A DNA stretch of 64,000 nt, from the NCBI RefSeq assembly GCF_002368415.1, contig NZ_AP018290.1, forward strand, positions 5,035,614 through 5,099,613, given 5' to 3'. Source of the DNA: Calothrix sp. NIES-4105. Lineage in GTDB: Bacteria > Cyanobacteriota > Cyanobacteriia > Cyanobacteriales > Nostocaceae. This document shows, one piece after another, positions 27,876 to 48,079 of the stretch. The position numbers were made by a program, and so were the translations under genes. Numbering within the stretch: the first letter of the stretch is position 1; each line of letters begins with the position of its first letter. The notes beneath the pieces were generated by a model, which ran no database searches, was not told the DNA's origin, and worked only from the letters and a program-made list of their open reading frames with translations.

Positions 27876-27912
27876 GAACAGGAACCTAAACACAGCAAAA
27901 ATGTTTTATCAT

Positions 27913-28022
27913 TAGTAGTATTCTGGTAGGTTCGTAGTTGTTGCTCTAGCCCTCTAAATTCATGTTTTTGAAGCGCTGAAGCGCTACTACGTACTTATTA
28001 AAACTATTGACACAGACTACTA
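27913..28022. repeat. MITE-like element, family A
   Basis: Its right end CTACTACGTACTTATTAAAA continuing to TTGACACAGACTACTA is the inverse of the left end of the element at 47940 (TAGTAGTCTGTGTCA...). The left end is more degenerate. It sits six bases from the stop codon of the next minus-strand gene, at the edge of the HIP1-type block. Confidence 0.6.
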
Positions 28023-28027
28023 CCTCC

Positions 28028-29395
28028 TCAGTACTCTTGACTCAACCACCGACGATACAACTCACACCGGATCTTCACCTGCCCGGACTGCACCTTGATC
28101 AACCCCATGTGATTTAACTGAAAGAGTTCTAATGACTTGAGGTAAACTGGTTCTTGTGCTGTGATGATGGCTTTAAGGGTAGTTGCTAAGGTTGTTTGCT
28201 TTTTCAGGGTAGATAACTGGCGTTGCAAATGATGGTAAAATGGGCTGCTAATGGTCAGGGCTGAATCCAACAGTTCATCTAGCGTCGTAGGCGTGCGAGC
28301 GATATGATAAAGTGCCACCCGCACCAGATAAGGGTGTCCTCCTACTTGAAACATCAATTTTTCGACCTCAGCCTTTGTCCAGTTGAGCCGATGCGAATCA
28401 ATTAGGGTTTTCACCTGAGCGGCGTTAAACTCTGGCAGTTCGATGGAAATGCCGACATTAAACGGCGATTGGTTAATGTGAAGGGGAACGTAAGCTTCCG
28501 TAGAATGCACCAGAATTAGCCGCAGGGTTTGCCACAATTCACTGTTCTTGGCATCTTCATACCAGGCTCGCAGCAGGGTAAAAAAGCCATCGGCGGTTGC
28601 CGGATAGGCAAATAGGGTATCTACTTCATCCAATGCCAACACTAGTGATTGCTGACATTGCGGTAACAGGTAATTTTCAAAGTAGTCTTTGCAACTCGTT
28701 TTACTGCCAAATATGTCATCCCAATAGTCGGCTAACTGCAAGGGAAGTTTCAGCGCATGGCTAACTCTGGCACAAAACCATTGTAGGAAGCGATTAAGAT
28801 CTTGCAGAATGGCAGTATCTACCAGTTGCAGATTGAGCAAAACAGTGGAATATCCCTGTTGTTCGGCGTCGTTCAAGATACGAATTAGTAACGAGGTTTT
28901 ACCCATTTGCCGGGGTGCGCGGATACGCAGCAGCGCTCCAGGTTGGCTGATCGCTTGATAACAGCTAGATTCTATTGGCGGGCGATCGCAATACAGGGTT
29001 GAGGTAAGTTTGACAGGTCCATCAGGAAATTCCAGTGATGGTAATACAGATGTTGTTGCATTGAGACAAGCAGAAGATCGGACTGACTTCACGGCAGACA
29101 AATCTTTGTAGCGACGCTCAATAACAGAGCGAAAGTTTTTTTTGCCTACCTGTTCATTTAGGATTTCAGACAGCAGTTCCCACAGGGCAGCCCCAATCGT
29201 TTTAATATAAGGTTCAGACCAGCAAGTACCTTTAGATATGTCCTCATAGGTTTCTCCAGTCCAGACTCCCTGAACGATCGCTACCTGCAAGTTGTTTAAA
29301 TGCTTACCTGTTTTAGCAAAAACCAGGCAATCGGTTACAGTAATTGCTGTTTCTAAATTAAACGATAAAGGTACACAAGGCTCAATAGGCTTCAT
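28028..29395 (-). CDS. HTH (vMAP-type) plus AAA-like ATPase regulator
   Basis: A 455-residue protein. The N-terminal 90 residues (AKTGKHLNNLQVAIVQGVW, then TYEDISKGTCWSEPYIKTIG and a helical end KKNFRSVIERRY) match the helix-turn-helix domain found in vWA-MoxR-associated and AAA-like cyanobacterial proteins. The ATPase domain has P-loop RAPRQMGKTSLL and Walker B LVLALDEVDTL, as in the AAA-like family that also forms the N-terminus of the WD40 protein at 39596. The C-terminus resembles a winged helix (LFQLNHMGLIKVQSG). It is likely a signal-responsive ATPase switch; the target is unknown. Its coding DNA contains CGATCG words and no GGCGCC, unlike most of the window. Confidence 0.82.
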   Translation of the reverse strand: MKPIEPCVPLSFNLETAITVTDCLVFAKTGKHLNNLQVAIVQGVWTGETYEDISKGTCWSEPYIKTIGAALWELLSEILNEQVGKKNFRSVIERRYKDLSAVKSVRSSACLNATTSVLPSLEFPDGPVKLTSTLYCDRPPIESSCYQAISQPGALLRIRAPRQMGKTSLLIRILNDAEQQGYSTVLLNLQLVDTAILQDLNRFLQWFCARVSHALKLPLQLADYWDDIFGSKTSCKDYFENYLLPQCQQSLVLALDEVDTLFAYPATADGFFTLLRAWYEDAKNSELWQTLRLILVHSTEAYVPLHINQSPFNVGISIELPEFNAAQVKTLIDSHRLNWTKAEVEKLMFQVGGHPYLVRVALYHIARTPTTLDELLDSALTISSPFYHHLQRQLSTLKKQTTLATTLKAIITAQEPVYLKSLELFQLNHMGLIKVQSGQVKIRCELYRRWLSQEY

Positions 29396-29514
29396 TAAAC
29401 TTGATCAATCTTGGCTGTGGATTTGTTTGTTTGGAAAGTTCTGATAAATGAAGCTTTGACAGCTTGACTTCGATCTGCTCAATTTCAAAGCTTTTCATTC
29501 AACACTGAACTATT

Positions 29515-29604
29515 TCAATGCACCTCATCAGGAGTGCGATAATCCATCGCTTGATGTGGGCTGTTTATATTATACCAGGCGCAAACAAAAATTACTGAAT
29601 TGAA
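29515..29604 (-). pseudogene. IS3-like transposase OrfB C-terminal fragment
   Basis: On the minus strand the sequence reads WYNINSPHQAMDYRTPDEVH followed by TGA at 29515-29517. This is the characteristic end of IS3-family DDE transposases (rPHqALdyrTPaev). Upstream residues FNSVIFVCA fade into non-coding DNA. Only about 30 codons survive, with no terminal repeats recognised. It marks past IS activity beside the accessory block. Confidence 0.8.
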
Positions 29605-30430
29605 ATTTCCTTGTGTGTGACTTGGGGTAGCTCCTAACTTGCACATTCTAAAATCCTATATCTAGCAAGGGTTTCAGAAAAATGTGCGTTCTTCCATATT
29701 AACTTACGCTTTTGCGGCGCCAGTCGGAGGCTTACCGGAATGCACCTAACGTGTAAACCTGTACAAAGCGAATTAGAGAGGATAAAAGTATAACTACAAT
29801 ATAAATTTTTATTCACGTAGAAAAATAAATATTTGTAACATTTTTCTACGTATTAATACGTAGTTGGTGCTAAACTTTTGATTTGATAATGGCGCCGTTG
29901 ATGCGCGAAAATTACATACAAAAGTACTACTAAAAATGAGTGGTAATGAACTTTATTTGCATTGTGGCGCCAAAACATGAGAAAAAGGGCGTTGAAATAT
30001 TACGTAATTCAGCAAGAAAAATGGTTTCAATTCTTAGGCACGGGATAAAATAAGCGTTTACACTTTGCTGTCATTGATGCCTGTAATGTTACGAAATTAA
30101 CGACCGAATCTGTCAACAAAACCCTCACGCGCGCTGGTACTGTGCGTATGTTCTGCAATAGTACATTTGCTTTTGGTGAGAAAGATTACTATAATTTAAC
30201 CCTGAGCAAATTACCTAACATTCTTCAATGCGCCCTCCGCACCATCGAAAATGCCGATGCGTGAAGGCTACAAGTCTTTTCATGAAGAGTGGAATTTTTC
30301 CGTGGCATCACACACCCTACCGCGCTTAACGACAGGCGCCTAATGAGCGAACTCTCTTAACTCAAGTACTCTGTGTACTCTATGTCTCTGTGGTAAAAAA
30401 TATATTACACCAAAACTTATGACATGAACT
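29605..30430. other. Gene debris region
   Basis: About 825 bases without an intact gene. An open stretch from about 30047 to 30264 on the plus strand (FAVIDACNVTKLTTESVNKT... LPNILQCALRTIENADA) ends in TGA and lacks a start; I do not recognise it. Four GGCGCC sites occur here, so this part is native-type DNA between two HIP1-type genes. A CTCTGTGTACTC-type repeat lies at about 30368-30395. A further MITE-like right end (CACCAAAACTTATGACATGA) lies at 30408-30435. Confidence 0.45.
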
Positions 30431-30645
30431 ACTAGTGGTCTGTGTCAAAAGTTTTGGTGTGTTGATAGTAAGGTCGCCATTGGCAACCATACAATTGTAC
30501 GCTTATACAGCACCCCAAAATTAATGACATAGACCACTAGTGGTTCGTGTCAAAAGTTTTGGTATGTTGATAGTAAGGTCGCCATTGGCAACCATACAAT
30601 TGTACGCTTATACAGCACCCCAGAATTAATAACACAGACCACTAG
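30431..30645. repeat. Two tandem 105-bp MITE-like units
   Basis: Units start at 30431 and 30536 with ACTAGTGGT and the array ends in ACCACTAG at about 30645, exactly 105 bases apart. Each carries inverted ends TAGTGGTCTGTGTCAAAAG and AATTAATGACATAGACCACTA and an inner CAATTGTACGC. The ends match the family at 27913 and 47940, while the interiors differ. The last unit stops 10 bases from the stop of the RTX gene. Confidence 0.85.
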
Positions 30646-30654
30646 GGTCAAACA

Positions 30655-33600
30655 CTAAAACACGAAATTGTTGGGGTTATTAAAAGTGCCAGTACTTGCT
30701 AAGTTCACCGTGATAAAAGGTCTGAAGATGTCGTTGCCTGTGAGGCCATCAGCATCAATTAGCACGCTGAAATTTCTGGAACTACTACCCGGGACAACTT
30801 TCACATAGCCATCATCTATGGCGTTAGTGCCGTTGTAGCCTCCTGGTACTAGGCTGTCGAGCAGTTGAGTGAAAACAATCTTGTCCTTACCCACTTTAAA
30901 ATCTGTAATTGTGTCCCCGCTGTCGTTGATGTTGGTATAAACAAATTCGTCATTACCGCCATTACCTGTCAGGGTATCTGCACCACCTAAACCGACGATG
31001 CGCTCGCTCTGGTTAGTGCCAGTTAAAACATCACGTCCTGGTGTGCCAATAATTTCATTCTGCTGTTTGGCATTGATAATTTTTACGTCAAAGACATCTT
31101 GACTACTTGCGTTAAAAGTGTCTGTTGCTGTTAATTTTAGGCTCAGAATGCCAACATCACTCTTGGTTGGTGTACCACTAAATGTCCGTTTAGCTGCATC
31201 GAATTTGAGCCAATTTGGTAAAGGATTGCCATTAGCTGAGGTTGCTGTATAGTTGAGACTATCACCAGGGTCTACATCCTTGAAGGTGTTGGCATCGAAG
31301 GTGAAGCTAAAGGTTTCCTTTGCTGTGGCTGTTTGGTCAGCGATCGCATTTTCTAGAGTGGGTGCTGTATTGGTAATCGGAACTATAATCACTGGTGGGA
31401 CAGAACCGCCACTTGCTATCGGAGCATTGCCATTGTTAAGGGTGAGGGCTTTCTCAAAGAACAATCCATCTTGATCGGCTGTCCTCACTCGCACACTGTA
31501 ACTGGGTTTTGTGGCTAAATCCGATGTGTTACTGATGATCAGCTTATTATCTGTAATCGTAAAGGCGCTGTTGTCATCTGCACCTGACCCATTCACCAAG
31601 CTATAGGTAAAAATGTCATTTGTATTCGGGTCATTAGTGGTGAACGTTCCAATTACCGTGTTCGCTGCAACATTTTGGTCAATGCTTGTGCTGCTGACGG
31701 CTATATTAGTGGGCGTTTTATTGACGTTAAATGAGAGGATTTTTTCAAAGGTCAGTCCCCCTTGATCCTTCGTTTGCACTCGCAGGCTGTAACTTAATTT
31801 ATCACTCAGAGCAGGAGAACTATTAATTTGCAACTGGTTGCCATTGATACTAAATACCCCATTATCTGTTGAGCCAGGACCATCAACGAGGCTATAGGTA
31901 AACGTGTTATTGGTATCAGGATCGGTACTGCTCAAAGTGCTAATAACAGTATTCGCTGCAATATTTTCATTGATCGCCGTTGTGCTAAGAGCGATATCTG
32001 TGGGGGCTTCGTTGATTTCATTCACCCCAACACTCAAGGCTTTCTCAAAAAATAAGCCGCCTTGGTCTGTTGTCCTAACTCGCAGATTGTAACTCGATTT
32101 GGTTGCCAGATTTGGAGAGGTATTAATCTGTAGTTGATTGCCAACAATGGTAAAGGCACTGTTATCTTCTGCACCCGTTCCCGTAACTAAGGTATAGGTA
32201 AAGGGATTGCCCGGATCTGGGTCGGTTGTGGAGAACATGCCGACAATTGTATTGGCAGGAACCTTTTCATCAACACTCAGGGCGCTGAGGGCTAAATTAG
32301 TTGGTGCTTCGTTGGCATCTGTGACGAGAACATTGACAGTTTGAGAGGCACTTAAGACTCCATCAAAGGCGGTCACAATCAGGTCATAAATGTTATTGCC
32401 GCCATTGTCCGCAGGGGCATTATAGCTAGGAGGCGTTTTAAACGTCACAGCCCCAGTACCGCTGTTGATATTAAACAGATTACTATCTGTTCCCGACAAG
32501 CTATAGGTCAGGGTCGTTCCGGCATCTGGGTCTGTAGCTGTAGCGGTATAAACTGTACCTGTGCCTTTTTCGGCAAAGGTCACTAACCCCAATTTCTCAA
32601 TTTTAAGATTATCGACTGCTGAAATTCCATAACTGCCAAAGTTGAGATAGTTGTTGGTGTATCCCCCGTTACCTTTGACGTATTTGTAGATCAAGGTTGT
32701 ATCGGCATAAACATAAAGATTGGTTTGTCCCACGCCATCAAAGGGATTTCCATCCGTGGGGTCAGTAGCAATCAGGGTAAAGGGATAGAGTGTAGCATTA
32801 TTGCCAGTTCCGCCCCAATTTTTATAGGTACCAGTTACATCTTGGCTACCGTCAAAAGCTTGAATTCCTCCATTACCACGGAAGAGAATCCCAAAATGGG
32901 GAACGCTACTGTTGACAAAGCTACCTTTATCAGCAGCAGATAATCCCAGATTTAGACTAGCCCATAGGGTTTGGTCAGGTAAGTTTGTTGAGTTTGGCGC
33001 TAAATTGAAGCTAATTTTCAGCCCACCTTGGGAAGTAGCTGTGTTGAAGTTGTAATCTAGAGCAGCCGTTCCGCCATAAGCAGTCAGCAGATAGTTACCA
33101 GAATCTATGCCAGCGGTGGGATTACCAACTTGAGCATTCCCAGACCGAACCCAATTAACGTTGGTAGGCAAAGAACCGCCTCGGCGCCCGATGAGATTGT
33201 AATTAAGGTCGTTGGTTGAGGGAGTCCTCGCAGCCAAGAAGTTATCGGTGAGGAGGGCAAAGGTGGGGGCTTCGTTACGGTTAGCAACGTTAAGCGTTAA
33301 AGCTTTTTCAAAAGATAATCCACCTTGGTCGATGGTTTTGACCCGAATGCTGTAACTTGATTTAGCTTCAAGGTTGGGAGAGGCGTTGATTTTCAGTTGA
33401 TTGCCACTAATTGTAAACAAGGAATTATCAGTTGAACCAGTGCCAGTCACAAGCGAGTAGGCAAAGGTATTGTTGAGATCGGGGTCGGTAGTGTTTAAAG
33501 TTCCAATAATCCCATCGGCAGGAATATTTTCATTAATGCCACTCGTATTCAGGAAAATGTCTGTGGGGACTTCATTGAGGTTGGTAACATTAATGGTGAA

Positions 33601-36600
33601 GACCTTCTGATAGCTTAAGCCATTTTTATCAGTAGTTTGGACGCGAATGCTGTTGCTGGGTTTTGTGATAGCGTTGGTGGCTGCGGTATTGATTTTAAGT
33701 TGATTGCCACTGATGGTAAAAGCTGCATTATCGTTTGAGCCTGTACCATTAACAAGGGTATAGGTGAAGGTATCGCCCAAATCTCCGTCGGTGCTGCTTA
33801 AGGTTCCCACTAATGTGCCGATTGCAGATTTTTCAACGATTGCCGTCGAACTTAAAGAGATGTCCTTCGGTGCTTCATCATTATTAACATTGGTGACGCT
33901 AACACTATAGGTTTTATCCGTTTCCAAATTCCCATCGCTGGCGGTAACGATCAGGTCGTAAACGTTATCCCCATCAAGGTCTTGAGGCGCTTCATAGTTG
34001 GGAGCATTTTTAAAGGTAACAACTCCCGTAGTGCTATTGATGTTAAATAGGCCACTATCAAACCCAGGAGCAAGGCTATAGCTAATGGCAGACCCCTCTG
34101 GATCTCTCGCCGCAGCAGTAAAAACGCTTCCTGTGCTATTTTCAGCAAAGTTAATGATACCTGTACCGAGGTTGAGTTGTTGAATGCTGATATTATCTAC
34201 CCCTGAACGCCAGAGACTGCCGAAATTTAGGTAGTTATCGCTATAACCGCCATTTCCTTTGATATAGCTATAGATCAGCGAGCCATTGGCAAAGACACCG
34301 ATATTTGTTTGACCAACGCCATTGAAAGGATTATTATCTGTGGGGTCAGTGAGTACTACCGAGAAGGGGTACAATGTTGCATCATTACCTGTGCCTCCCC
34401 ATTGGTTGTTGGGGTTAGTGACGAGATTGGCGCTGGTGATATCGGTGTTGCCATCAAAGGCTTGAATCCCTCCATTACCACGGAAGAGAATGCCAAAGTG
34501 CGCCACATTTGCATTGACGATCGTATTCTTATTAGCAGCCGATAGACCGAGACTGAAACTACCCCACACACTTTGATCGACATTATTTGTGGGATTTGGG
34601 GCTAGACTAAAATTGATTTTCAATCCCCCCTTGGCGATCGTGCCATTGAAGTTGCGATCGAGAGCAGCCGTTCCGCGATCGGCGACGAGGAGATACTTCC
34701 CTGAATCAATCCCCGCCGTCTTGTTACCAACTTGAGCATTGACACTACCAACCCAGTTTGTGGTTTTCAATGTGCCTGTTTGTCGAGTGGCTATCTCATA
34801 ATTCAAGTTAGAAGTAGTGGGGTTGGTGGTCGTTGTAAAACTGTCAGATAAAAGGTTGACAACCGTATTACTGAGATTAAGGTTTTCAATCGCCAGGTTA
34901 TCGATACCTGAACGGTAGTTACTTCCGAAATTGATATAGTTGTCCTTATAACCCCCATTGCCCTTCACATAGCTGTAGACAAGAGAGCCATTAGCATAGA
35001 CATCTATATTAGTTTGACCAACACCATCAAAAGGATTATTGTCAGTGGGGTCTGTGAGTAAAACGTCAAACGCTTGCAGAGTTGCATCATTGCCACTGCT
35101 ACCCCATTTATTAGTAGCATTTGCGACAAGATTAGCACTGGTGATATCTATGTTACCGTCAAAAGCTTGAATGCCGCCATTACCTCGAAATAAAATGCCA
35201 AAGTGCGGTAAATTGTCTGTAATGTAGGCTGTTTTGTTAGCCGCAGATAACCCCAAGCTGAAACTGCCCCAAACGGCTGGATCTGCACCACTTATACCTA
35301 TGGGATTCGGGGCCATATCAAAACTGATTCTTAGCCCGCCGCGAGACGTTGTACCATTCAAGTTATAGTCTAGGGCAGCATTTCCACCGTCGGCAAGCAG
35401 TAGATAGTTTCCTGAATCAATAGGAGTTGTACCAGTGTTTCCAACCTGGGCGTTAACCCTGCCAACCCAGTTTTTCGTTTCTTGGGGGCCAGTTTGTCGC
35501 GCCGCTAGGTTGTAATTGAGATTGGTTGTATTCGGATTGCTTGTGGCTGTAAAATTGTCAGTCAGCAAGGCGAAGGTGGGGAAGCCCAGGTTTTTCACCT
35601 GATAAGCACCGTTTGCAAACTGTAGCTTTTCAATCCCTTGGAAAGTGTCTGTGCCATCATCACCGTTACTCGTCACCGTATCCCTAATTTGGATCAGCCC
35701 GCTTAATAATCTATGGATTTTATAATCGCTATAGTTACCGCTATAGATGGCCGTATCATTCCCGGCGCCTCCTTTAAGGATATCATTGCCAGCTCCACCT
35801 GTTAGAGTATCATCGCCCTCTTCACCCAAAAGGGTATCATCACCATTCCCGCCAGTTATAGTGTCATTGCCTTTCCAGCCTTGAATCAGATCCTTGCCAT
35901 CACCGCCATCAAGGATATCGTTGCCATCCCCCGCATCAAGGACATCGTTCCCTGCTCCGCCGTAGAGCTTGTTGTTGCCCTGTCCGCCATCTAGGAAATC
36001 ATCACCGTCATTCCCGTAGAGGATATCATCTCCGCCTAAGCCATAAACTTGGTCATTGCCACTCGTTCCCGGATAGTTATTGTTGGCACTATTAAGATAA
36101 GTTCCCGACTTGTTCAGCGTGGTTTGAAGGAACGCGGTAAATATTTCCTTCTCTCCCCCAGTTTGGAGAAGGGTTTTTAGATCCGGTGAAGCAGCTTTTA
36201 GGGCTGTATTCAGTTCATTAGTTAAATTTGTCTTAACATTAACTGTTCCTTCCACACCTAGCTCTTTGGAACCAAAGATTATCACGCCCTGGCCTGCCGC
36301 CACCGCTGCTGCGGTAAGGACAACCGAAACAGGCCCAGCAGTGCTCGCAATTGCACTAAAAGCTGCACCGATCGTAAACCCCCCTGCTGATAGGGCAGTT
36401 GTCCCACTAGCAGCAGTACTTATAATAGCTGAATAAGCAACAGAGCTTATACCAGGGAGAGACAAGAGAACACTTCCTTGAGCAACCGCTGTTGTTGCCA
36501 ATATCGCGGTCCCTACAGCAGAGTATGTTACGACCGCAAGTGTACCGGTTGCCAGCCCAGCCCCTACGATTGTTGCAGCCACTTGCCCGGCGCTTGCTCC

Positions 36601-38805
36601 CGATGCTTGTAAATATTGAAAGGTTGTGGAAGCATCAAGTAAATTTTGTTGATAGCGGGCAAGCCCTTTACTCGTCGTTTCTGAAGCAACTTGACCTTGA
36701 GGACTCAGGCTCAATTCTCTATAATAATCTGCTTTAGCATCCCGACGAACATCAGGCGGGCTGGACACTGAAAAAAAAGAGCCTATACCCCTACGCGGCG
36801 CGGAATAGTTGGGAAAGCCAAAACCTTGAGGGGTTTGATAGGTATCAGCGTTTTGTTCCCAATCTTCATATCGATCCAAAGCCAGCCGCTTCTCTTGAAT
36901 GCGATTCAACCGGATTCGATCTGCCAGGAAAGATAATGCACCTTTTTCTGTATCAGTTTTTTCTGCCTCAGGTTTGTTAATAGCCTGCAACAATAAACCG
37001 AAAAGGGTAGAGCGGACTGTGGTCAAATCATTAGACGAAGCCAAGTTTTTTGCCTGTGCCGCAAGAGCTTCAAAGGATCGATCAGCGACATAAGTACCTA
37101 TTGGCGAAAAAAGCCCAATACCAGAGTCATCATTAACAATGGAATTGTCACTGTTTATCAAATCACTAGCGATGTATTCGGCATTAACCACCACTACCTT
37201 GAAGTCATTAACAGAATTAGTGATAAACTTAGTGTTAGTATCAAAGAGAACCAGATCACCTGTAGAGCCTATAACCATGTCCTGGGGAGAGCTAACGGTA
37301 GTGGGTGTTGTTGCCTGAGGGCTTTTCTTTAAAGCAATATTGAGTTCGGTTCCATTGAAGCTAACGGTTTGATCGGCATCTGTGACAACGGGAGCATTGA
37401 CAAAATACTTAAGGGTGCCATCACTGCTTCCGGCAATCACATCTACAGCACCATCTCCGTTCAAGTCCCCTAAAGTTGGACTGATATAAGTTCCGCCATT
37501 AATTCCATAGAAAAGACTATCGCTTTGGCGCGTAAAGAGGGGATTTGTGGGACTTCCTGTATTTCTGTAGTAAGTAAGACTGCCATTCCTTTCACCAACG
37601 AGTAAATCGAAGTCGCCATCGTTATCTACATCGAATAACGTGGGAAAAGCCCTTGCACCTACAGCTGCACTATTGAAGGGGTTGGCTGTCCCTGTTTGGG
37701 CAATATATCTGGGGCTGGTGGCACTGCCTGTATTTTTGTAGTATTTGAGGTTGCCTTCCCAGTCGCCCACAACTAAGTCTCGATCGCCATCGCCATCGAG
37801 ATCGGCGAAGGCAGGACTGCTTAAAAGACCGACATCAATACTGTTAAAGGGGTTGGCTGTCCCTGTTTGGGCAACATAACTGGGGTTTGTGGCACTGCCT
37901 GTATTTTTGTAGTATTTGAGGGTGCCATCTGCCGAACCTGCAATCAGGTCTAGGTCGTTATCTCCGTCAATATCGACTAGGGCGGGACTGCTCAAATCCC
38001 CCACATCAATACCATTAAAGGGATTAGCATTCACAGTGATAACTCTAGGAAAGGTTAAGCCCGTGTTTTGGAGTGGGACAAATATAGTTATATTTGTGCT
38101 AGTAGCCCCTTGTTCAGCATAGGTAAGCCCAGTATCACTTTCATAGTTTTGGAATGAAGCGATCGTCCCGTCACTCTTGCCCACAATTATATCCAAGCGA
38201 CCATCGCCATTGATATCGGCGAAGACGGGTTTACTAAAGTTGCCCACATCAACTGTACCAAGCGGATTAGCATCGCCTGTTTTCGCCACATAGTTACGGA
38301 TGCCAACACCAAGCGAAACAGCAGTCTCCACGGATACAGGCTGACCTTCTACAGTAATTGTGGCTGAGTCATTCTGAGATTGGATGGCTTGAATTTGCTC
38401 TGAAGTAAACGAGACACCGCGCACCAGGTCTGAAAATAATTCCCCTTCATCCCCTTGGCTATCCTTGGTGTTAATGCGTGCATCAATGCTGTGACCAATT
38501 TCTTCCAGAAGCACAGCCACAATTTGAGACTCAGAAGCAGTGTCTAAAAACGATTGGGATAGATAAATAGTATTGTTAGAACTGGCATAAGCTCCAGCAA
38601 TACCCTCCATGCCAGTTTTCAAGATTTGGATGGGCGGTAGCTGGTTAAAGTTACGGTTCTGCCATTGGCGCCTCAAATCTTTGACAAGAGCTGAATTATA
38701 TTGGCTGCCAAAAGTTCTATTGAAGTCTTGCCAGAAATTTTTTGAGTTAGCAAAATCAGCTAAAAGGTCAAATACTGTATTGAGTTGAACAAATGCAAAA
38801 GACAT
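30655..38805 (-). CDS. Giant secreted RTX protein with FG-GAP, lectin-like and cadherin-like repeats
   Basis: A 2716-residue protein, probably exported by a type I system. Order: an N-terminal domain with VLLEEIGHSIDARIN (about 104), similar to cyanobacterial metalloprotease-like leaders but lacking a full HExxH; five FG-GAP/VCBS repeats (about 172-472) with DINGDGRLD-type calcium loops; a hydrophobic Ala/Gly-rich stretch (about 750-890); RTX nonapeptides GGxGxDxLx (about 918-1012). Three roughly 230-residue jellyroll-like units follow (1075, 1315 and 1853), each with HFGILFRGNGGIQAFDG and VYSYVKGNGGY, interspersed with many cadherin-like repeats. A He-PIG-type Ig domain (PNWLKFDAAKRTFSGTPT) precedes a terminal RTX block (about 2582) and a C-terminal secretion region. 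Likely an adhesin or sheath protein. No ABC/HlyD exporter is adjacent. Confidence 0.88.
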   Translation of the reverse strand: MSFAFVQLNTVFDLLADFANSKNFWQDFNRTFGSQYNSALVKDLRRQWQNRNFNQLPPIQILKTGMEGIAGAYASSNNTIYLSQSFLDTASESQIVAVLLEEIGHSIDARINTKDSQGDEGELFSDLVRGVSFTSEQIQAIQSQNDSATITVEGQPVSVETAVSLGVGIRNYVAKTGDANPLGTVDVGNFSKPVFADINGDGRLDIIVGKSDGTIASFQNYESDTGLTYAEQGATSTNITIFVPLQNTGLTFPRVITVNANPFNGIDVGDLSSPALVDIDGDNDLDLIAGSADGTLKYYKNTGSATNPSYVAQTGTANPFNSIDVGLLSSPAFADLDGDGDRDLVVGDWEGNLKYYKNTGSATSPRYIAQTGTANPFNSAAVGARAFPTLFDVDNDGDFDLLVGERNGSLTYYRNTGSPTNPLFTRQSDSLFYGINGGTYISPTLGDLNGDGAVDVIAGSSDGTLKYFVNAPVVTDADQTVSFNGTELNIALKKSPQATTPTTVSSPQDMVIGSTGDLVLFDTNTKFITNSVNDFKVVVVNAEYIASDLINSDNSIVNDDSGIGLFSPIGTYVADRSFEALAAQAKNLASSNDLTTVRSTLFGLLLQAINKPEAEKTDTEKGALSFLADRIRLNRIQEKRLALDRYEDWEQNADTYQTPQGFGFPNYSAPRRGIGSFFSVSSPPDVRRDAKADYYRELSLSPQGQVASETTSKGLARYQQNLLDASTTFQYLQASGASAGQVAATIVGAGLATGTLAVVTYSAVGTAILATTAVAQGSVLLSLPGISSVAYSAIISTAASGTTALSAGGFTIGAAFSAIASTAGPVSVVLTAAAVAAGQGVIIFGSKELGVEGTVNVKTNLTNELNTALKAASPDLKTLLQTGGEKEIFTAFLQTTLNKSGTYLNSANNNYPGTSGNDQVYGLGGDDILYGNDGDDFLDGGQGNNKLYGGAGNDVLDAGDGNDILDGGDGKDLIQGWKGNDTITGGNGDDTLLGEEGDDTLTGGAGNDILKGGAGNDTAIYSGNYSDYKIHRLLSGLIQIRDTVTSNGDDGTDTFQGIEKLQFANGAYQVKNLGFPTFALLTDNFTATSNPNTTNLNYNLAARQTGPQETKNWVGRVNAQVGNTGTTPIDSGNYLLLADGGNAALDYNLNGTTSRGGLRISFDMAPNPIGISGADPAVWGSFSLGLSAANKTAYITDNLPHFGILFRGNGGIQAFDGNIDITSANLVANATNKWGSSGNDATLQAFDVLLTDPTDNNPFDGVGQTNIDVYANGSLVYSYVKGNGGYKDNYINFGSNYRSGIDNLAIENLNLSNTVVNLLSDSFTTTTNPTTSNLNYEIATRQTGTLKTTNWVGSVNAQVGNKTAGIDSGKYLLVADRGTAALDRNFNGTIAKGGLKINFSLAPNPTNNVDQSVWGSFSLGLSAANKNTIVNANVAHFGILFRGNGGIQAFDGNTDITSANLVTNPNNQWGGTGNDATLYPFSVVLTDPTDNNPFNGVGQTNIGVFANGSLIYSYIKGNGGYSDNYLNFGSLWRSGVDNISIQQLNLGTGIINFAENSTGSVFTAAARDPEGSAISYSLAPGFDSGLFNINSTTGVVTFKNAPNYEAPQDLDGDNVYDLIVTASDGNLETDKTYSVSVTNVNNDEAPKDISLSSTAIVEKSAIGTLVGTLSSTDGDLGDTFTYTLVNGTGSNDNAAFTISGNQLKINTAATNAITKPSNSIRVQTTDKNGLSYQKVFTINVTNLNEVPTDIFLNTSGINENIPADGIIGTLNTTDPDLNNTFAYSLVTGTGSTDNSLFTISGNQLKINASPNLEAKSSYSIRVKTIDQGGLSFEKALTLNVANRNEAPTFALLTDNFLAARTPSTNDLNYNLIGRRGGSLPTNVNWVRSGNAQVGNPTAGIDSGNYLLTAYGGTAALDYNFNTATSQGGLKISFNLAPNSTNLPDQTLWASLNLGLSAADKGSFVNSSVPHFGILFRGNGGIQAFDGSQDVTGTYKNWGGTGNNATLYPFTLIATDPTDGNPFDGVGQTNLYVYADTTLIYKYVKGNGGYTNNYLNFGSYGISAVDNLKIEKLGLVTFAEKGTGTVYTATATDPDAGTTLTYSLSGTDSNLFNINSGTGAVTFKTPPSYNAPADNGGNNIYDLIVTAFDGVLSASQTVNVLVTDANEAPTNLALSALSVDEKVPANTIVGMFSTTDPDPGNPFTYTLVTGTGAEDNSAFTIVGNQLQINTSPNLATKSSYNLRVRTTDQGGLFFEKALSVGVNEINEAPTDIALSTTAINENIAANTVISTLSSTDPDTNNTFTYSLVDGPGSTDNGVFSINGNQLQINSSPALSDKLSYSLRVQTKDQGGLTFEKILSFNVNKTPTNIAVSSTSIDQNVAANTVIGTFTTNDPNTNDIFTYSLVNGSGADDNSAFTITDNKLIISNTSDLATKPSYSVRVRTADQDGLFFEKALTLNNGNAPIASGGSVPPVIIVPITNTAPTLENAIADQTATAKETFSFTFDANTFKDVDPGDSLNYTATSANGNPLPNWLKFDAAKRTFSGTPTKSDVGILSLKLTATDTFNASSQDVFDVKIINAKQQNEIIGTPGRDVLTGTNQSERIVGLGGADTLTGNGGNDEFVYTNINDSGDTITDFKVGKDKIVFTQLLDSLVPGGYNGTNAIDDGYVKVVPGSSSRNFSVLIDADGLTGNDIFRPFITVNLASTGTFNNPNNFVF

Positions 38806-39595
38806 AGTGATTTTTCCTAAGTATGATAAAATTAGCCAAGAGGATGCACGAGTCTCTGTTGCTGTCGTTATCTGTCGGCATTGACAGCGATGTAGTAGGG
38901 TTAACTATAATCAGCGCAAAAGCTTTTATCTCTAATTTGTGATTCTAAGCAGAGGAAAAATAGAAATCAGGGTGATTCAGGAATATACAGCACCGCAGCG
39001 TGTTCATGCGGTACATGTAGAGACGTTACATGTAACGTCTCGAAGCGGGTTTTGGGCATCATGTGTGTACCTCCGGAACCTGAAATATGCTGTAAAAATA
39101 GGATAGGTAACGTAATTGACAAGGGATTGAACTTTAGCAAATCCCAATGACAATTGAGGAATAGGAAAGATGGTAAGCCGAGGCTGAATTAAATTAAATA
39201 GGATAACAGGTTGAACGATTAAACGGCTGAACGACGCTCTCTAAAGCTCCCTGAAATGCTTTCAGTGTTTTTACTGTCTTATTATCATCTCATGAGACAA
39301 ATAATAGAGGAATAAGAAAAAGTATTGATTTTTGATTTTGTAAGTATGGTTATTTTTATATTTCTGCCTACTTTTTTGATTACTGACAACTAAAAAGTAT
39401 CATTTAGTAGTATTTTGCCTATCCTAGAGAACAATCCACAGCAAAGTGCTGTTAGCGGTAGCTCGGCGCCATCGCCGCGTGCTGAGTAGAAACCCAGTTG
39501 ACACGCTTTGGCGCCGCTATAAGCCTAACCAAAAAATTTAGGATAAAACCGTTACGCGCGTGAACCAAAATTGTCACGCCAGAAAATCTACTGGC
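38806..39595. other. Intergenic region between the RTX and WD40 genes
   Basis: About 790 bases with no credible gene. It contains the 22-bp palindrome listed at 39020-39041, AT-rich stretches and, near 39464-39515, two native-type GGCGCC sites. The RTX promoter must be in the first part. Confidence 0.4.
39020..39041. repeat. GAGACGTTACATGTAACGTCTC palindrome core
   Basis: A perfect 22-base palindrome centred on ACATGT, preceded by TGTA. It is related to the AGACGCAATTAATTGCGTCT palindrome captured inside the sensor kinase gene at 55548. Dispersed-repeat type; a regulatory role on the RTX gene is possible but unsupported. Confidence 0.75.
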
Positions 39596-42500
39596 TTAAG
39601 AATTGCCTTTGCACAACCCCGCGTCTTTTTTTGCCTCTGGATTGGTTCGCAGATAATCTCGTACCCAATCACAACCAATCTGTTCTAGTCGATTGATATC
39701 AACTGCTTGTTGCAAATTCCAGATAATCGCACTCTTATCCCAACTGCTGGATGTTAACCACCGCCCATCTTGGCTAAAGGCTAACCCAAAAACAACATCT
39801 TGATGGGCTTTTAGGGTTGCCAATAAGGTGCCGTCTAGTTTCCAGAGCTTGATAGTGCGATCGCGGCTCCCGGATGCGACCGTTTTGCCATCTGGGCTGA
39901 AAGCTACCGCGTAGACTTTGCTGCTATGACCTTTGAAGGTACGAAGGAGTTTCCCCTCCACTGTCCAGAGTTTGATCGTGCGATCGTGACTCCCTGATAC
40001 AATGAGTTTGCCATCTGGGCTAAAGGCGAGATCCTGTACTTCCGCTTTATGCCCTGTAAAAGTGCGAATCAAGCTGCCATCAAGATGCCAAAGTTTAATA
40101 GTGCCATCATGACTGCTGGTGGCAATCTGCCTTCCATCTGGACTAAAGCGGATGCGGCTGATACCATTTTGATGTCCGGTTAGGGTAGTAACTAGGCTCC
40201 CGTCTAACTTCCAGAGTCGAGCCACATCTTGTATTGTGTTGCCTGCTGCTAACAGTTGACCATCAGGGCTAAACTCAACGGTACTACCTTCGGCTGATGG
40301 CTGCTCGTTTTGGCGCAGATCGATGGTTCCAGTTGGCTCTTGGAGCGAAAATGTCTTTAACTGCATACCATTGGCTTGCCAGAGGTGAATAATGCCAGTG
40401 CCATCGCTAGAAGCCAGACGTTGACCATCGGGATGAAAAGCAACTCCATTGGCGATCGCTTTATGTCCCCGAAAGGTGGTGAGTAAGCGACCATCCCGCG
40501 TCCACAGTCTCACTGTCTGATCCCAACTGGCCGAGGCAACGCGCTCACTGTCGGGGCTAAACGCCACCTGCAAAATCTGCGCCTGATGTCCCAAAAGACG
40601 GGTCAACACTGGGTTGTGCAATTGCCAAAGTTTGACTAAATTGTTAGAACCAGAAGAGGCAAGCTGCTTTCCATCCGAGGTAAACTCCACTCTCCAAGCA
40701 GCATCTCCCTGCTTCAATGTTAATAACAATGTACCATCTCGTCGCCACACCTTCACTGTTTGATCCGCACTTGCGGAAGCCAGTAGTTGTCCATCTGGAC
40801 TAAAGCTAATGCCAAAAATGTCAGTAGTATGTGCCGCCAAAGTCTGCATCAGGCGACCATCTCGATGCCAGAGTTTCATTACCCCATGCCTATCTCCAGA
40901 AGCTAGCAGTTGCCCCGAAGGACTAAAGCTTACCACATTAACTTGTCCCTGATGCCCTACTAACGTTTTGATTAAGCGTCCATCGCTACTCCAAAGCTTG
41001 ACGGTGCGATCTCCGCTGGCAGAAGCAATTGTCTGTCCATCCTTGCTAAAATCCACACCCCAGACCACATTCTCATGCCCCTTGAGGCTGCAAACCAGGC
41101 GACCTTTCAGATCCAAGAGTTTGACGGTGCGATCTTCACTTGCGACCGCAATTGACTGACCATCGGGGCTAAAGGTAAGCTTGAATAAGAGAATCTGCCT
41201 CTGTGAATCAGGCTGCTTCCAAGTCCAAAGCAGCCGTCCGTCCCGTCTCCAAAGTTTCACTTCTCCTGCTTGAGTGGATGCAGCCAGGAATTGACCATTA
41301 GGGCTGAAAACCACGTCATAAACCCAATCACTGTTATTTAAAGTCTTCAATAACCTGCCATCTGCCGCCCAAAGTTTGATGGTCTTGTCGCGGCTACCTG
41401 TGGCAATTTGTTGCCCATCTGGGCTAAAAACCACACTGTACACATACTCCTGATGCCCAACCAAACGGTTAAATTCCATAGCGCCATATACTGCTTGCCG
41501 TAGCACTTCTTCGACTTGGGCGCTCGTGGCAGGATTGACGCTGCTTAATCGCTGCAATTGCTGTTTGGCTCGCAGTGCTTCAAGAAGAGCATCCAGGCGC
41601 CGATCAGAGGCAAACAAGGCTTCAGAACTGCGGGAGAGGGCTTGAATTTCACTCACTTTCGCGGTTTGATATTGCCAGAAAGTCGTTAACCCCAAACCCA
41701 ATACCACGATCAATGCCAGACTGATTACCCCTAACAAGTATCGTTGCAGTCGAGCCGTTTTTTTCTCCTGCACTAAGCGGGCTTCGATTTCCCTTGTGCG
41801 GGCAGCTTCTAAGGCTTGCTGTTGTTCTCGTTTCTCTAGCGCATGGGAAGCTGCTAAAAACTGATAATCCTGATCGCCAATTTGTTTGCCCTCTGCCCAG
41901 ACCTCGGCATCTCTCAAAGCCTGTCCTTGCAGCAACCGTGATTCGTCTAATCGTTCGGAACTCAGCCAGTCCCTTAGATTAATAGCATAAGGTCGCAGAT
42001 TTGTCAATAATTGCTCCACCCATTCAAAGTTAAATACCTCTGCATAGATGGGGTTGCGAACTCGCAAGTAGCCCTGCTCCTTGACGACTAAGCCCGATAG
42101 CAGTAACTCGGTTTGTTCGGGGCTGTTGTCGATGGGAACAGTTTTACCCCGTACATCTAAAATCTGCTGATATAAACCTAGCAAGCGTCCGGATTGCTGT
42201 TCGTCATATAGCAGACGATGGGCGATAGTTCGCAAATGTTCTGGTTCATCTTGGAGTTCCCAGTAGTCGATCAAGCGCGATCTCACTAGGGTTTCTAACC
42301 AACTTGCTTCTTGTCCTGTAGGAATGGCGATCGTGCTATCCTGCCAAGCATTCAGCACCAATTGACAAAGCTTTTGGGTTAAAAAGGGTTGTCCATTTGT
42401 CCACTCTAAAATGTGACGCAGCATGATTTCCGGTTGGTTCACTGTTAAGCGCAAACCGGGAAGCAACGGCAAGGCTTCAGGCAACCGAAATCCTTGTAAG

Positions 42501-43117
42501 TCGATCGCCCGTCCAATATTAAAAGGTGTCCGACTTTTGTCCGCAATTAGATCGCTAGGCGTGGCTACCCCCAACAGCGTGAAGGTGAGCCGTTGATAAA
42601 TTGGTTCTTCCACCCGCTGATTATAACAGGCACGAATCAACGCAAAAAAGTCATCAATGGGAAAGTCTAATCCCAGGACACTATCAATTTCATCAATAAA
42701 AATGACTACAGGTTGCTGAATTTCAATCAGTAAAACTGTTGCCAAAAAATCATTAAAGCGTTTTACAGGGGAGAGATGCGATCGTTCTCGCCACCAGGTT
42801 CGCAAATTTACCCCAAGCCGGAAGCTGCTAACAATACTTTGTAAGACTGAGGCATACCACTGTTCGGATGTCATCTGTTGACTACCAATGGTTGTCATAT
42901 CAATCGCGCCCGATCGCATACTCTCAGCTTGCAGGCGATCCATGATCCTCACTCGCAGGCTAGACTTCCCCATCTGTCTTGCATTCAGCACATAGCAAAA
43001 CTCTCCCTTTAGCAATGCCTGATATAATTCATCATCCGCCTGTCGTTTAACATAACTGGGCGCAGTTACAGGAAGGCTACCACCTGCTTGATATTTATAA
43101 AGAGATGGACTGGACAT
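39596..43117 (-). CDS. AAA-like ATPase with 14 WD40 repeats
   Basis: A 1173-residue protein. The N-terminal AAA-like domain has P-loop NARQMGKSSLRVRI and Walker B VVIFIDEIDSVL, then TNGQPFLTQKLCQL and a helical region. One transmembrane helix (YLLGVISLALIVVLGLGL, about 465) follows a coiled Glu/Gln-rich stretch. From about residue 555 there are 14 WD40 repeats of the VxFSPDGxxxASxSxDxTxKLW type, enough for two seven-bladed propellers. The helix would place ATPase and propellers on opposite sides of the membrane unless it inserts otherwise. It shares the ATPase family with the gene at 28028. CGATCG words are frequent in its DNA. It is probably a STAND-like signalling scaffold. Confidence 0.9.
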   Translation of the reverse strand: MSSPSLYKYQAGGSLPVTAPSYVKRQADDELYQALLKGEFCYVLNARQMGKSSLRVRIMDRLQAESMRSGAIDMTTIGSQQMTSEQWYASVLQSIVSSFRLGVNLRTWWRERSHLSPVKRFNDFLATVLLIEIQQPVVIFIDEIDSVLGLDFPIDDFFALIRACYNQRVEEPIYQRLTFTLLGVATPSDLIADKSRTPFNIGRAIDLQGFRLPEALPLLPGLRLTVNQPEIMLRHILEWTNGQPFLTQKLCQLVLNAWQDSTIAIPTGQEASWLETLVRSRLIDYWELQDEPEHLRTIAHRLLYDEQQSGRLLGLYQQILDVRGKTVPIDNSPEQTELLLSGLVVKEQGYLRVRNPIYAEVFNFEWVEQLLTNLRPYAINLRDWLSSERLDESRLLQGQALRDAEVWAEGKQIGDQDYQFLAASHALEKREQQQALEAARTREIEARLVQEKKTARLQRYLLGVISLALIVVLGLGLTTFWQYQTAKVSEIQALSRSSEALFASDRRLDALLEALRAKQQLQRLSSVNPATSAQVEEVLRQAVYGAMEFNRLVGHQEYVYSVVFSPDGQQIATGSRDKTIKLWAADGRLLKTLNNSDWVYDVVFSPNGQFLAASTQAGEVKLWRRDGRLLWTWKQPDSQRQILLFKLTFSPDGQSIAVASEDRTVKLLDLKGRLVCSLKGHENVVWGVDFSKDGQTIASASGDRTVKLWSSDGRLIKTLVGHQGQVNVVSFSPSGQLLASGDRHGVMKLWHRDGRLMQTLAAHTTDIFGISFSPDGQLLASASADQTVKVWRRDGTLLLTLKQGDAAWRVEFTSDGKQLASSGSNNLVKLWQLHNPVLTRLLGHQAQILQVAFSPDSERVASASWDQTVRLWTRDGRLLTTFRGHKAIANGVAFHPDGQRLASSDGTGIIHLWQANGMQLKTFSLQEPTGTIDLRQNEQPSAEGSTVEFSPDGQLLAAGNTIQDVARLWKLDGSLVTTLTGHQNGISRIRFSPDGRQIATSSHDGTIKLWHLDGSLIRTFTGHKAEVQDLAFSPDGKLIVSGSHDRTIKLWTVEGKLLRTFKGHSSKVYAVAFSPDGKTVASGSRDRTIKLWKLDGTLLATLKAHQDVVFGLAFSQDGRWLTSSSWDKSAIIWNLQQAVDINRLEQIGCDWVRDYLRTNPEAKKDAGLCKGNS

Positions 43118-43172
43118 TAAGTTGCTCGGGGTAAACTAAACTTACTTAAATATATGCAGGTTTGAATTAAAA

Positions 43173-43295
43173 GTGCTGGAAGTTGAAATAACAGAGTTAA
43201 AAATTGCGGATTATGAAGAAGTGATAACTGTTTGGGAAAATAGTCAAGGTGTACGTTTACGCTCCGGCTGCAAGAACGCTTGCTTTTGCTTCTGA
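43173..43295 (+). pseudogene. GNAT acetyltransferase N-terminal fragment
   Basis: GTG 43173 begins MLEVEITELKIADYEEVITV continuing WENSQGVRL, a typical GNAT opening. It then runs into CGCTCCGGCTGCAAGAACGC-type repeat sequence and stops at 43293-43295. Only the first helix and strand survive, so this is a remnant disrupted by a repeat. Confidence 0.6.
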
Positions 43296-43311
43296 AACTA
43301 CATATTTCTGA

Positions 43312-43892: not shown

Positions 43893-44540
43893 ATGTCTCA
43901 GATAATTTGGATTGCTAGACACGCTAACCGTCTAGACTTTGTAAACCCCGATTGGTTTCTTACTGCTGAACGTCGTTATGACCCACCACTTAGTGAAGAT
44001 GGGTTTATTCAAGCAAAACAGCTAGCAAGTCGTCTTAAAGGCGAAAAAATTCATCATATTTTTGTATCACCGTTTTTGCGAACCGTGCAAACAGCACATG
44101 CTATTGCTGAAGTACTTAATTTACCAATTAAATTAGAGACGGGGTTGAGCGAATGGCTAAATCCTGATTGGATGGATGAGGAACCACAACTCCACCCGAT
44201 TCGCGAATTGGTCAAATTTTATCCCCGTATCGATACTAGCTACACACCTATCATTGCTGCTAGATATCCGGAGACACGAGCGCAAGTTCGTGCGCGCGCT
44301 GGACAAACTGCCAGATGTTTGGCTACTGAGTACTCTCCAGAAAATATACTGTTAGTGGCACATGGTGCATCAGTCAACGGTGCTGTACTAGGAATTGCAG
44401 GAGAATCAATTTACCAAGCTGAAAAAGTTAGGTTGTGTAGCTTGTTTAAACTCGTTCGTCAGCACCCTGAATGGTGGATCGAGCTAAAAGGAGACACATC
44501 GCACTTGACTGAGGTGGAAGAAATGGTTCGATTTAATTAG
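43893..44540 (+). CDS. Histidine phosphatase family protein (phosphoglycerate mutase-like)
   Basis: A 215-residue member of the histidine phosphatase superfamily. The phospho-acceptor His is in IWIARHANRLD (RHA in place of RHG), the supporting Arg in SPFLRTVQTAHAIAEVL, and the second catalytic His in LLVAHGASVNGAVLG. Substrates in this family range from phosphosugars to phosphoproteins; cofactor-dependent glycolytic mutase is unlikely given the divergent first motif and shorter length. Only 19 bases separate it from glk, so the two are probably co-transcribed and the substrate may be a sugar phosphate. Confidence 0.87.
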   Translation: MSQIIWIARHANRLDFVNPDWFLTAERRYDPPLSEDGFIQAKQLASRLKGEKIHHIFVSPFLRTVQTAHAIAEVLNLPIKLETGLSEWLNPDWMDEEPQLHPIRELVKFYPRIDTSYTPIIAARYPETRAQVRARAGQTARCLATEYSPENILLVAHGASVNGAVLGIAGESIYQAEKVRLCSLFKLVRQHPEWWIELKGDTSHLTEVEEMVRFN

Positions 44541-44559
44541 TTGCGTTCTTCAAATAATT

Positions 44560-45585
44560 ATGACTTTATTACTAGCAGGCGATATCGGCGGAACGAAGAC
44601 AATTTTACGATTGGTTGATGTAACCAAAGAATCATCATTACGAACTGTGTACGAGAATACTTACCGTAGCGGTGATTTTGTTGATTTAGTACCGATGGTC
44701 AAAGAGTTTCTACGCGATGCCAATTCTGACCACCCACAAAAAGCATGTTTTGGTATAGCTGGACCTGTTGTTGGTGATACCGCGAAATTAACTAATCTAG
44801 CTTGGTATCTTGATTGTGGGCGCCTCCAGGTGGAGCTTAATATACCTCAAGTAGCTCTAATTAACGATTTTGCCGCCGTTGGTTATGGGATTTTAGGGCT
44901 AGAAAGTCAAGATTTGTGTACTCTACAAGCTGGTACACCCCGTGATGATGCCCCAATTGCCATTATTGGTGCCGGTACAGGTTTGGGGCAAGGTTTTTTA
45001 ATCAAGCAAGGACAAGATTATTATGTGTATCCTTCGGAAGGGGGACACGCGGACTTTGCACCACGAACAGAATTAGAGTTTCAATTATTAAAGTATCTAC
45101 TTGATAAACACGATATTCAACGGGTTTCTGTTGAACGTGTTGTATCTGGTTTGGGTATTGTCTCGATTTATCAATTTTTGAGAGACCGTAAAATTGCTAC
45201 TGAGTCTCCTGATATTGCACAAGTCGTTCGCGCGTGGGAACAACTTGCAGGACAACAAGAAAAAAGTGTAGACCCAGGTGCTGCTATTGGTAGTGCAGCA
45301 CTTAGTAAAAGTGATGATTTGTCCGAACAGACAATGCGGTTGTTTGTGGAAGCTTACGGCGCCGAAGCTGGAAATCTCGCATTAAAGCTTTTACCATACG
45401 GAGGATTATATATTGCAGGTGGTATTGCCCCTAAGATTCTTCCACTTATTGAATCATCCGACTTTCTATTGCATTTCACTCAAAAAGGACGAATGCGAAG
45501 CATTTTAGAAGACATACCTGTAAAAGTTATTCTGAATCAAAACGTTGGGCTAATTGGCGCCGCTATTTGTGCGGAAAGGTTATAG
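44560..45585 (+). CDS. glk: Glucokinase
   Basis: Phosphorylates glucose to glucose 6-phosphate with ATP in the cytoplasm, feeding glycolysis and the oxidative pentose phosphate pathway. At 341 residues it matches bacterial Glk. The phosphate-binding loop is LLAGDIGGTKT, the catalytic Asp is in LINDFAAVGYGI, and ATP/glucose contacts are in IIGAGTGLGQGF and SEGGHADFAPR. LYIAGGIAPKI closes the adenosine pocket. It follows the histidine phosphatase in an apparent two-gene unit. Confidence 0.96.
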   Translation: MTLLLAGDIGGTKTILRLVDVTKESSLRTVYENTYRSGDFVDLVPMVKEFLRDANSDHPQKACFGIAGPVVGDTAKLTNLAWYLDCGRLQVELNIPQVALINDFAAVGYGILGLESQDLCTLQAGTPRDDAPIAIIGAGTGLGQGFLIKQGQDYYVYPSEGGHADFAPRTELEFQLLKYLLDKHDIQRVSVERVVSGLGIVSIYQFLRDRKIATESPDIAQVVRAWEQLAGQQEKSVDPGAAIGSAALSKSDDLSEQTMRLFVEAYGAEAGNLALKLLPYGGLYIAGGIAPKILPLIESSDFLLHFTQKGRMRSILEDIPVKVILNQNVGLIGAAICAERL

Positions 45586-45605
45586 GTGAGTTATAACAGA
45601 TTGGC

Positions 45606-47021: not shown

Positions 47022-47022
47022 A

Positions 47023-47650: not shown

Positions 47651-47672
47651 AAACTTTAAATTTTTTCTAATC

Positions 47673-47911: not shown

Positions 47912-47939
47912 TTTTCTTGATAAGAGAGACTACATATGT

Positions 47940-48060: not shown

Positions 48061-48079
48061 TCTCTACAACATTTTGATT

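Follow-up and report, generated by a model that had tools for sequence, protein, structure and literature searches.

Why should three neighbouring genes of a cyanobacterium carry a palindrome that the DNA around them lacks? The question is raised by a 64,000-nucleotide stretch of Calothrix sp. NIES-4105 (contig NZ_AP018290.1, positions 5,035,614 to 5,099,613; hereafter the window, whose own numbering is used throughout), in which GGCGCC is the recurrent palindrome and three genes carry instead CGATCG and its full form GCGATCGC, the highly iterated palindrome 1 (HIP1). The answer proposed here is that these genes were almost certainly transferred from a HIP1-rich member of the Nostocales, and that they very probably form a genomic island: a cassette of Nostoc type that entered one native intergenic spacer as a unit and has since been reordered and interspersed with repeats. 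The genes are conspicuous because the highly iterated palindrome differs between the lineages of donor and host. The genes, with their motif counts, are as follows.

28028-29395, minus strand: gene 1, an AAA_35 (AAA-like) ATPase of 455 residues (Pfam AAA_35, E 1.5e-139); 7 GATC, 2 CGATCG, 1 GCGATCGC, 0 GGCGCC.
30655-38805, minus strand: gene 2, a surface-type protein of 2716 residues with FG-GAP, RTX calcium-binding, cadherin and Ig-like repeats (Pfam); 31 GATC, 8 CGATCG, 1 GCGATCGC, 3 GGCGCC.
39596-43117, minus strand: gene 3, an AAA_35 ATPase with C-terminal WD40 repeats (Pfam), 1173 residues; 23 GATC, 7 CGATCG, 2 GCGATCGC, 1 GGCGCC.

Judging from their domains, genes 1 and 3 are predicted signalling ATPases and gene 2 a predicted surface or adhesion protein.

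By exact count, all 17 CGATCG sites of the window fall inside the three genes, as do all four copies of HIP1, and only 4 of the 98 GGCGCC sites do (at 33183, 35764, 38667 and 41596). The strongest contrast between the block and native DNA is the avoidance of GATC by the latter: the three genes hold 61 of the 78 window sites (4.7 per kb; 50 expected), and outside the block 15 sites stand against 173 expected (0.31 per kb). Were sites scattered evenly over the window, the probability that all 17 CGATCG would fall in the genes is 1.8e-12, that at most 4 of the 98 GGCGCC would do so 3.7e-6, and that at least 61 of the 78 GATC would do so 1.0e-27; under even scatter, chance is therefore excluded as the source of the motif contrast. 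The genes are also richer in GC than native DNA (45.4-48.5%), and their GC content at third codon positions is 0.42-0.46 vs 0.23-0.39 in the 28 other tabulated open reading frames (ORFs). A preliminary description of the locus, made by eye, had put about 17 CGATCG, four full HIP1 and four GGCGCC in the three genes, figures that the exact counts match; it had also rightly placed CGATCG nowhere else in the window, and GGCGCC again in the spacers between the genes (29716, 29891, 29966, 30335, 39465 and 39510). Its six GGCGCC in xfp (840-3302, Pfam XFP domains) turn out to be seven, and the contrast in GATC it had left uncounted.

On contig136 of Nostoc sp. FACHB-973 (locus L054), which was reached by a genome-contig scan with gene 3 as query and has no GGCGCC in 21.6 kb, the best relatives found for the genes are all neighbours, with a DNA identity of 84-89%. 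Gene 1 matches L054:9551-10981 at 84%. Gene 2 matches the same locus at 86-87% over window positions 31405-37082 and 37293-38929, and at 84.3% over 2678 aligned codons, its frame in L054 being open for 2852 codons and running off the locus end. Gene 3 is 89% identical to L054:11079-14594 and 89% identical to the Desmonostoc loci L051 and L052; its WD40 repeats at 39964-40148 match L052 and L054 out of register, as repeat units would, and are excluded from the identity figures. The Nostoc cluster thus comprises the same three genes in another arrangement of order and strand: genes 1 and 3 read in the same direction, with 86 bp from the end of the former to the latter, and gene 2 is divergent. 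Around it lie a resolvase and an AAA protein, an integrase-like fragment, and a protein that weakly matches a Mu-type transposase, recombinase-like neighbours that may plausibly have been the vehicle for transfer. In a set of 60 related genomes, each gene has its best match outside the host in Desmonostoc vinosum HA7617-LM4 (a metagenome assembly). The gene-3 orthologue of the latter is broken at two contig ends (L051:1-126 and L052:1-128) that have a 21-base string in common and a 7-base overlap of their window matches, as if an insertion element were present there.

The identity of the three genes to Nostoc is at the level otherwise seen between congeners. Native window DNA (43893-63651) matches the congener G002, judged from identical plasmid coordinates to be Calothrix sp. 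PCC 7716, at 82-87% in long matches, and FACHB-973 at 65-79% in 11 pieces of at least 100 bp, the size from which pieces were counted. Synonymous divergence (dS) from FACHB-973 is 0.54 for gene 1 and 0.36 for both gene 2 and gene 3 (bootstrap standard deviations 0.06, 0.02 and 0.03, in gene order); six native genes have a dS of 0.19-0.56 to G002 and of 0.58-1.02 to the congener G001. In trees of chosen homologues (22 sequences for gene 1 and 16 for gene 3; gene 2, repetitive and domain-shuffled, was left out), gene 1 groups with FACHB-973 (100/99), apart from the three congener copies included, and gene 3 with the FACHB-973 and Desmonostoc clade (100/100), apart from the two congener copies included. 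At E<=1e-140, gene 1 has matches in 4 of 217 family genomes, its own copy counted, and none in the six congeners; in the latter, among the matches listed, genes 1 and 3 reach at most 54% identity, and gene 2 is met only as short pieces, the best being 72% identical over 138 amino acids.

The receiving site can be read directly from the congeners. Window positions 27912 and 43177 align in G002 to positions 6995 and 6819 of locus L058, 175 bp apart, and in G001 the flanks are 132 bp apart; the flanks thus adjoin in both, and therefore one native spacer received 15.26 kb. G003 is without the block within the 20 kb read. The comparison took in these three genomes, the stretch from G004 being without the left flank, and G005 and G006 being left out. 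The features in and around the interval are the following.

27913-43176: the full insertion, 15.26 kb, as defined against the unoccupied site of G002, borders approximate.
22461-27875, plus strand: native left flank, a kinase/AAA/GAF/histidine-kinase gene of GGCGCC type (6 GGCGCC, 0 GATC).
27921-28023: dispersed repeat of the host abutting the 3' end of gene 1, with at least seven further copies in its own genome among the matches listed.
29396-30654: spacer between genes 1 and 2, with 4 GGCGCC, all within dispersed-repeat fragments.
29515-29655, minus strand: putative remnant, C-terminal, of a transposase of the rve type (Pfam rve_3 hit at E 0.007, weak and below cut-off).
38806-39595: spacer between genes 2 and 3, with 2 GGCGCC (39465 and 39510).
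43177-43261, plus strand: native right border, a stub of about 28 codons whose frame continues in G002, 94% identical to L058:6819-6735.
43893-46286, plus strand: native right flank of GGCGCC type, encoding a histidine phosphatase, a glucokinase (both Pfam) and one more ORF.

The right flank is found at 81-87% identity and in the same order in the four congeners searched. Since the rest of the reading frame is missing after the stub at 43177-43261, the right border may have involved a deletion. The spacer between genes 1 and 2 consists largely of repeats found elsewhere in the host or its congeners, among the matches listed; one piece of it (29741-30082) is multi-copy in congeners and lies beside a transposase on a plasmid of Calothrix PCC 7716, and has no second copy in its own genome among the matches listed. 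In the region of the putative transposase remnant, 71 bp also occur upstream of the Desmonostoc homologue of gene 3 (81.7% match to L051:1845-1914). Within the spacer between genes 2 and 3, positions 38982-39110 are a dispersed repeat of host and congeners, and the remainder is unmatched among the matches listed. No target-site duplication was found, there being no common 8-mer, direct or inverted, between 27881-28060 and 43091-43300; nor was a mobility gene found at the borders, only the doubtful transposase fragment inside the block. The interval is therefore classed as an acquired block and not as an integrative element, and it is a genomic island in that its site is empty in kin and its closest relatives belong to another lineage. 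The idea of transfer from a HIP1-rich cyanobacterium, put forward in the preliminary description, is accordingly borne out by FACHB-973 with its 84-89% identity, by the trees of genes 1 and 3, and by a site that is empty in two congeners, the block being missing from a third.

As to the number of transfers, a single event is probable: a three-gene cassette of Nostoc type would have entered one native intergenic spacer of a chromosome of the Calothrix lineage, where its genes may later have been reordered and dispersed repeats of the host lineage interspersed among them. Several observations weigh against so simple a history. The genes are in the order 3, 2, 1 on one strand in the host, and gene 2 is divergent from genes 1 and 3 in FACHB-973; therefore either rearrangements or a differently arranged donor are required. 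On either side of gene 3, homology to FACHB-973 breaks off no more than 10 bases from the gene border, and gene 2 in its 3' part (30655-31364) is 77% identical to Desmonostoc (L053) and unlike L054. Of the three genes, only gene 3 has a close orthologue in Desmonostoc, and therefore the genes can travel apart; gene 1, whose dS exceeds that of the other two, may have had a history of its own. Both GGCGCC sites of the second spacer are outside any repeat among the matches listed. Lastly, HIP1 density rises from 0.31 per kb in the genes to 0.60 on the FACHB-973 contig and 1.03 in the Desmonostoc stretches, the aligned FACHB-973 genes holding only 6 HIP1 vs 4 in the host genes.

An order and strand unlike those of FACHB-973, a gene 3 homology that stops at the gene borders, repeats between the genes, a dS of 0.54 for gene 1 vs 0.36 for the others, and a close Desmonostoc orthologue for gene 3 only are what would be left by three independent transfers, with one or more Nostocales as donors and, each time, a spacer flanked by native repeats as target. 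Such a course is nonetheless unlikely: the three best relatives adjoin on one contig of one genome, the genes share a single interval, unoccupied in congeners, and genes 2 and 3 have equal dS. For the same reasons (adjacency in FACHB-973, a common dS of 0.36 for genes 2 and 3, one inserted interval in the host) the preliminary suggestion of a possible arrival gene by gene into native spacers finds no support; the spacers in question contain dispersed repeats of host and congeners that hold all four GGCGCC of the first spacer and neither of the two of the second. Equally improbable is a second-hand route, whereby the block first entered another GGCGCC-type Calothrix, gained its GGCGCC-bearing repeats there and came to the present host afterwards. 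The piece at 29741-30082, with its many copies in congeners, its place beside the PCC 7716 plasmid transposase and no second own copy among the matches listed, would suit this route, but the six congeners have no high-identity copies of the genes, as seen above, and the other spacer repeats do have copies in their own genome among the matches listed. That the genes are native and escaped the host motif bias through composition, as their GC content of 45.4-48.5% and the repetitiveness of two of them might suggest, is hardly conceivable given that the congener homologues (three of gene 1, two of gene 3) lie elsewhere in the trees, that the site is empty in congeners and that identity to Nostoc is at congener level. 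An assembly artefact or contamination by Nostoc DNA, for which no supporting evidence was found, has likewise a negligible probability, with the block lying within an 11-Mb contig of an 8-contig assembly between syntenic native flanks, with host repeats inside it, and with 10-16% divergence from the nearest Nostoc found. One cassette received by one native spacer thus remains the preferred history.

What kind of genome received it? In sixteen 20-kb stretches taken every 700 kb along the main contig (320 kb in total), GGCGCC occurs 493 times, that is 1.54 per kb and 31 times the zero-order expectation, CGATCG at 0.031 per kb and GATC at 0.52 per kb, at least six GATC being present in just 3 of 160 two-kb bins. 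The whole host genome (12.04 Mb) contains 125 HIP1, and 2259 copies of TGGCGCCA vs 0 of its reversed control. GGCC is strongly avoided too, with 17 sites in the 64-kb window and 62 vs 431 expected in the 320 kb of samples; the three genes have 8 vs 37 expected. One-off sites of GGCGCC are mildly scarce in native DNA (272 vs 398 expected in 320 kb), a scarcity that was set aside as a signal, some control palindromes being scarcer.

Native GGCGCC sites are conserved beyond their surroundings. When native window DNA is compared with congeners, conservation, taken as 2C/(A+B), is 0.88 in G002 (28 common sites of 32 and 32), 0.88 in G003, 0.91 in G004 (few sites) and 0.79 in G001 (23 of 31 and 27). 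The corresponding values for other 3G3C hexamers, some of which overlap GGCGCC, are 0.62, 0.60, 0.53 and 0.60, and identical 6-mers make up 0.54, 0.56, 0.50 and 0.35 of positions.

The palindrome dialect of the host is shared by its genus. Among 41 genomes, which I divided into HIP1-rich and HIP1-poor, HIP1 amounts to at least 203 per Mb in 33 and at most about 36 per Mb in eight, namely seven of the host genus and G031; TGGCGCCA reaches 166-219 per Mb in all seven host-genus genomes and at most about 51 in the 34 others. Two 5-methylcytosine (m5C) methyltransferases follow this division. At E<=1e-60, a DmtC-like enzyme is found in exactly the 33 HIP1-rich genomes and in neither the seven of the host genus nor G031, a cut-off below which weaker matches and shortened remnants are possible genome-wide; a HindV-like enzyme is found at E<=1e-60 in all seven host-genus genomes and none of the 34 others (Fisher p 1e-8 for DmtC-like and HIP1, 4e-8 for HindV-like and GGCGCC, uncorrected for kinship). 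The seven genomes are of one genus and non-independent, which counts against the strength of this agreement; the match of enzyme and palindrome therefore represents few evolutionary events. The name HindV rests on one plasmid gene annotated as modification methylase HindV, 54.5% identical, the site of which I take to be GRCGYC. The search for GGCGCC- and CGATCG-specific methyltransferases, advised in the preliminary description, thus yields in the host a HindV-like enzyme and, at E<=1e-60, no DmtC-like one, both specificities being predicted. That of the DmtC type for CGATCG is assigned from its distribution and from the statement, in Elhai 2015 (PMC4390886), that the occurrence of CGATCG enzymes all but coincides with that of HIP1.

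For a truncated DmtC-like gene, nothing close was found in 12 of the 17 PF00145 loci of the host and seven further stretches, the best own sequence being about 34% identical over most of its length. PF00145 m5C methyltransferase matches number 9-17 in each host-genus genome (G000-G006) vs 2-6 in eight of nine other family members (10 in G012); some are halves of one gene, and host-genus genomes are mostly larger. The clustering of methyltransferases covered, among the matches listed, 12 of 17 own PF00145 matches and 7 of 9 from G001. The distant, HIP1-poor genome G031 (134 HIP1 in 3.7 Mb), which has no DmtC-like match, has not gained GGCGCC (46 TGGCGCCA) and represents a loss without replacement of the GGCGCC kind.

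A genus-wide change from HIP1 to GGCGCC lies behind the motif contrast of the block. The donor family maintains HIP1 along with a DmtC-like methyltransferase, and the host genus, without that enzyme and without HIP1, avoids GATC and keeps GGCGCC with HindV-like enzymes; the link from methyltransferase to palindrome may be causal, as in the methyl-directed repair model of Elhai. The kind of phenomenon is known. According to the same paper, Calothrix PCC 7103 and D253 have GGCGCC in place of HIP1; in PCC 7103, moreover, GATC is down to 16% of expectation, a deletion has broken the gene for the CGATCG methyltransferase, and two methyltransferases are of the GRCGYC type (PMC4390886). As in these strains, HIP1 is lost here, GGCGCC is hugely over-represented and GATC is strongly avoided; unlike that account, which covers one genome plus 19 kb from another strain, the present one extends to seven host-genus genomes, PCC 7103 possibly among them, and to an agreement of enzyme and palindrome over 41. 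Octamer frequencies, high-frequency octamers included, have been used to flag transferred genes in cyanobacteria (Elhai, Liu and Taton 2012, PMC3497702); unlike that approach, the case made here draws also on a genome closely related to the donor, on a site unoccupied in congeners, and on a host whose palindrome is another one and not simply less frequent. Among the open-licence papers listed, none was found on a genus-wide palindrome switch or an import of this kind, as judged by titles and the openings of abstracts. To what is known the present case adds a switch that runs through the genus with enzymes to match, the pairing of a close donor relative with an unoccupied site, and a system that lends itself to tests.

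Do other such islands exist in this genome? Ten 20-kb stretches were picked for clustering of HIP1, from the first places among the matches listed. The possibility that many other HIP1-type blocks are spread evenly through the genome, which the preliminary description had held against its own reading, is realised by half: two of the ten stretches contain sharp, GATC-normal islands (376-384 kb and 866-886 kb) that match cyanobacterial plasmids, and the other eight are mixed, intermediate or native-like. The island at 376-384 kb, HIP1-rich and without GGCGCC, encodes an alcohol dehydrogenase, a PfpI protease and an aldo/keto reductase, and its best match is a plasmid of Nostoc sp. HK-01 (87.7% over 41% of the query). 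The larger one at 866-886 kb contains 31 CGATCG and 13 GGCGCC; pieces of it match plasmid C of Trichormus variabilis best (89.3% over 32% of the query), with matches to other cyanobacterial plasmids as well, and it is possibly further along in a rewriting of imported DNA.

By such rewriting is meant that, in DNA imported from a HIP1 lineage into a chromosome that has GRCGYC-type methyltransferases but not the CGATCG one, CGATCG and HIP1 would decay and GGCGCC appear, GATC not being removed at first; the suggestion is tentative, and somewhat more likely to be wrong than right. Between the block and the aligned genes of FACHB-973, CGATCG numbers 17 vs 24, HIP1 4 vs 6, GGCGCC 4 vs 0 and GATC 60 vs 62. 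Of 64 palindromic hexamers, CGATCG shows the greatest loss (3 host-only, 10 relative-only, p 0.09); in gains, GGCGCC comes second (4 vs 0, p 0.125), after GATATC (6 vs 1); GATC is unchanged (22 host-only vs 25 relative-only). A clean replication was not obtained in the two further islands, which were compared through hits of at least 78% identity and at least 200 bases, two of them falling on the same plasmid stretch, the changes being unpolarised by an outgroup. Against its relative, the island at 376-384 kb shows no rewriting (CGATCG 5 vs 3, HIP1 2 vs 1, no GGCGCC), and that at 865-888 kb has CGATCG 4 vs 7, HIP1 0 vs 6 and GGCGCC 1 vs 0. Pooled host-only and relative-only sites are 12 vs 20 for CGATCG (p 0.22), 3 vs 10 for HIP1 (p 0.09), 5 vs 0 for GGCGCC (p 0.06) and 42 vs 46 for GATC (p 0.75). 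No single test is significant across the block and the two islands; the direction of the changes, which falls short of being established, fits the repair model set out in PMC4390886.

If rewriting were true, the genome would serve as a natural experiment in the spread of palindrome dialects: the resident methyltransferase would impose the palindrome identity of its host on any incoming DNA, islands would be datable by the state of their palindromes, and GATC avoidance would be a slower, separate process. Why a single palindrome should fill cyanobacterial genomes has long been an open question. An entire genus with GGCGCC for HIP1, and with two methyltransferases in step, turns what was a one-strain exception into a comparative system, and imported blocks with known relatives allow the competing ideas of biased mismatch repair, selection and restriction avoidance to be put to a direct test, since the palindromes of foreign DNA can be followed after its arrival.

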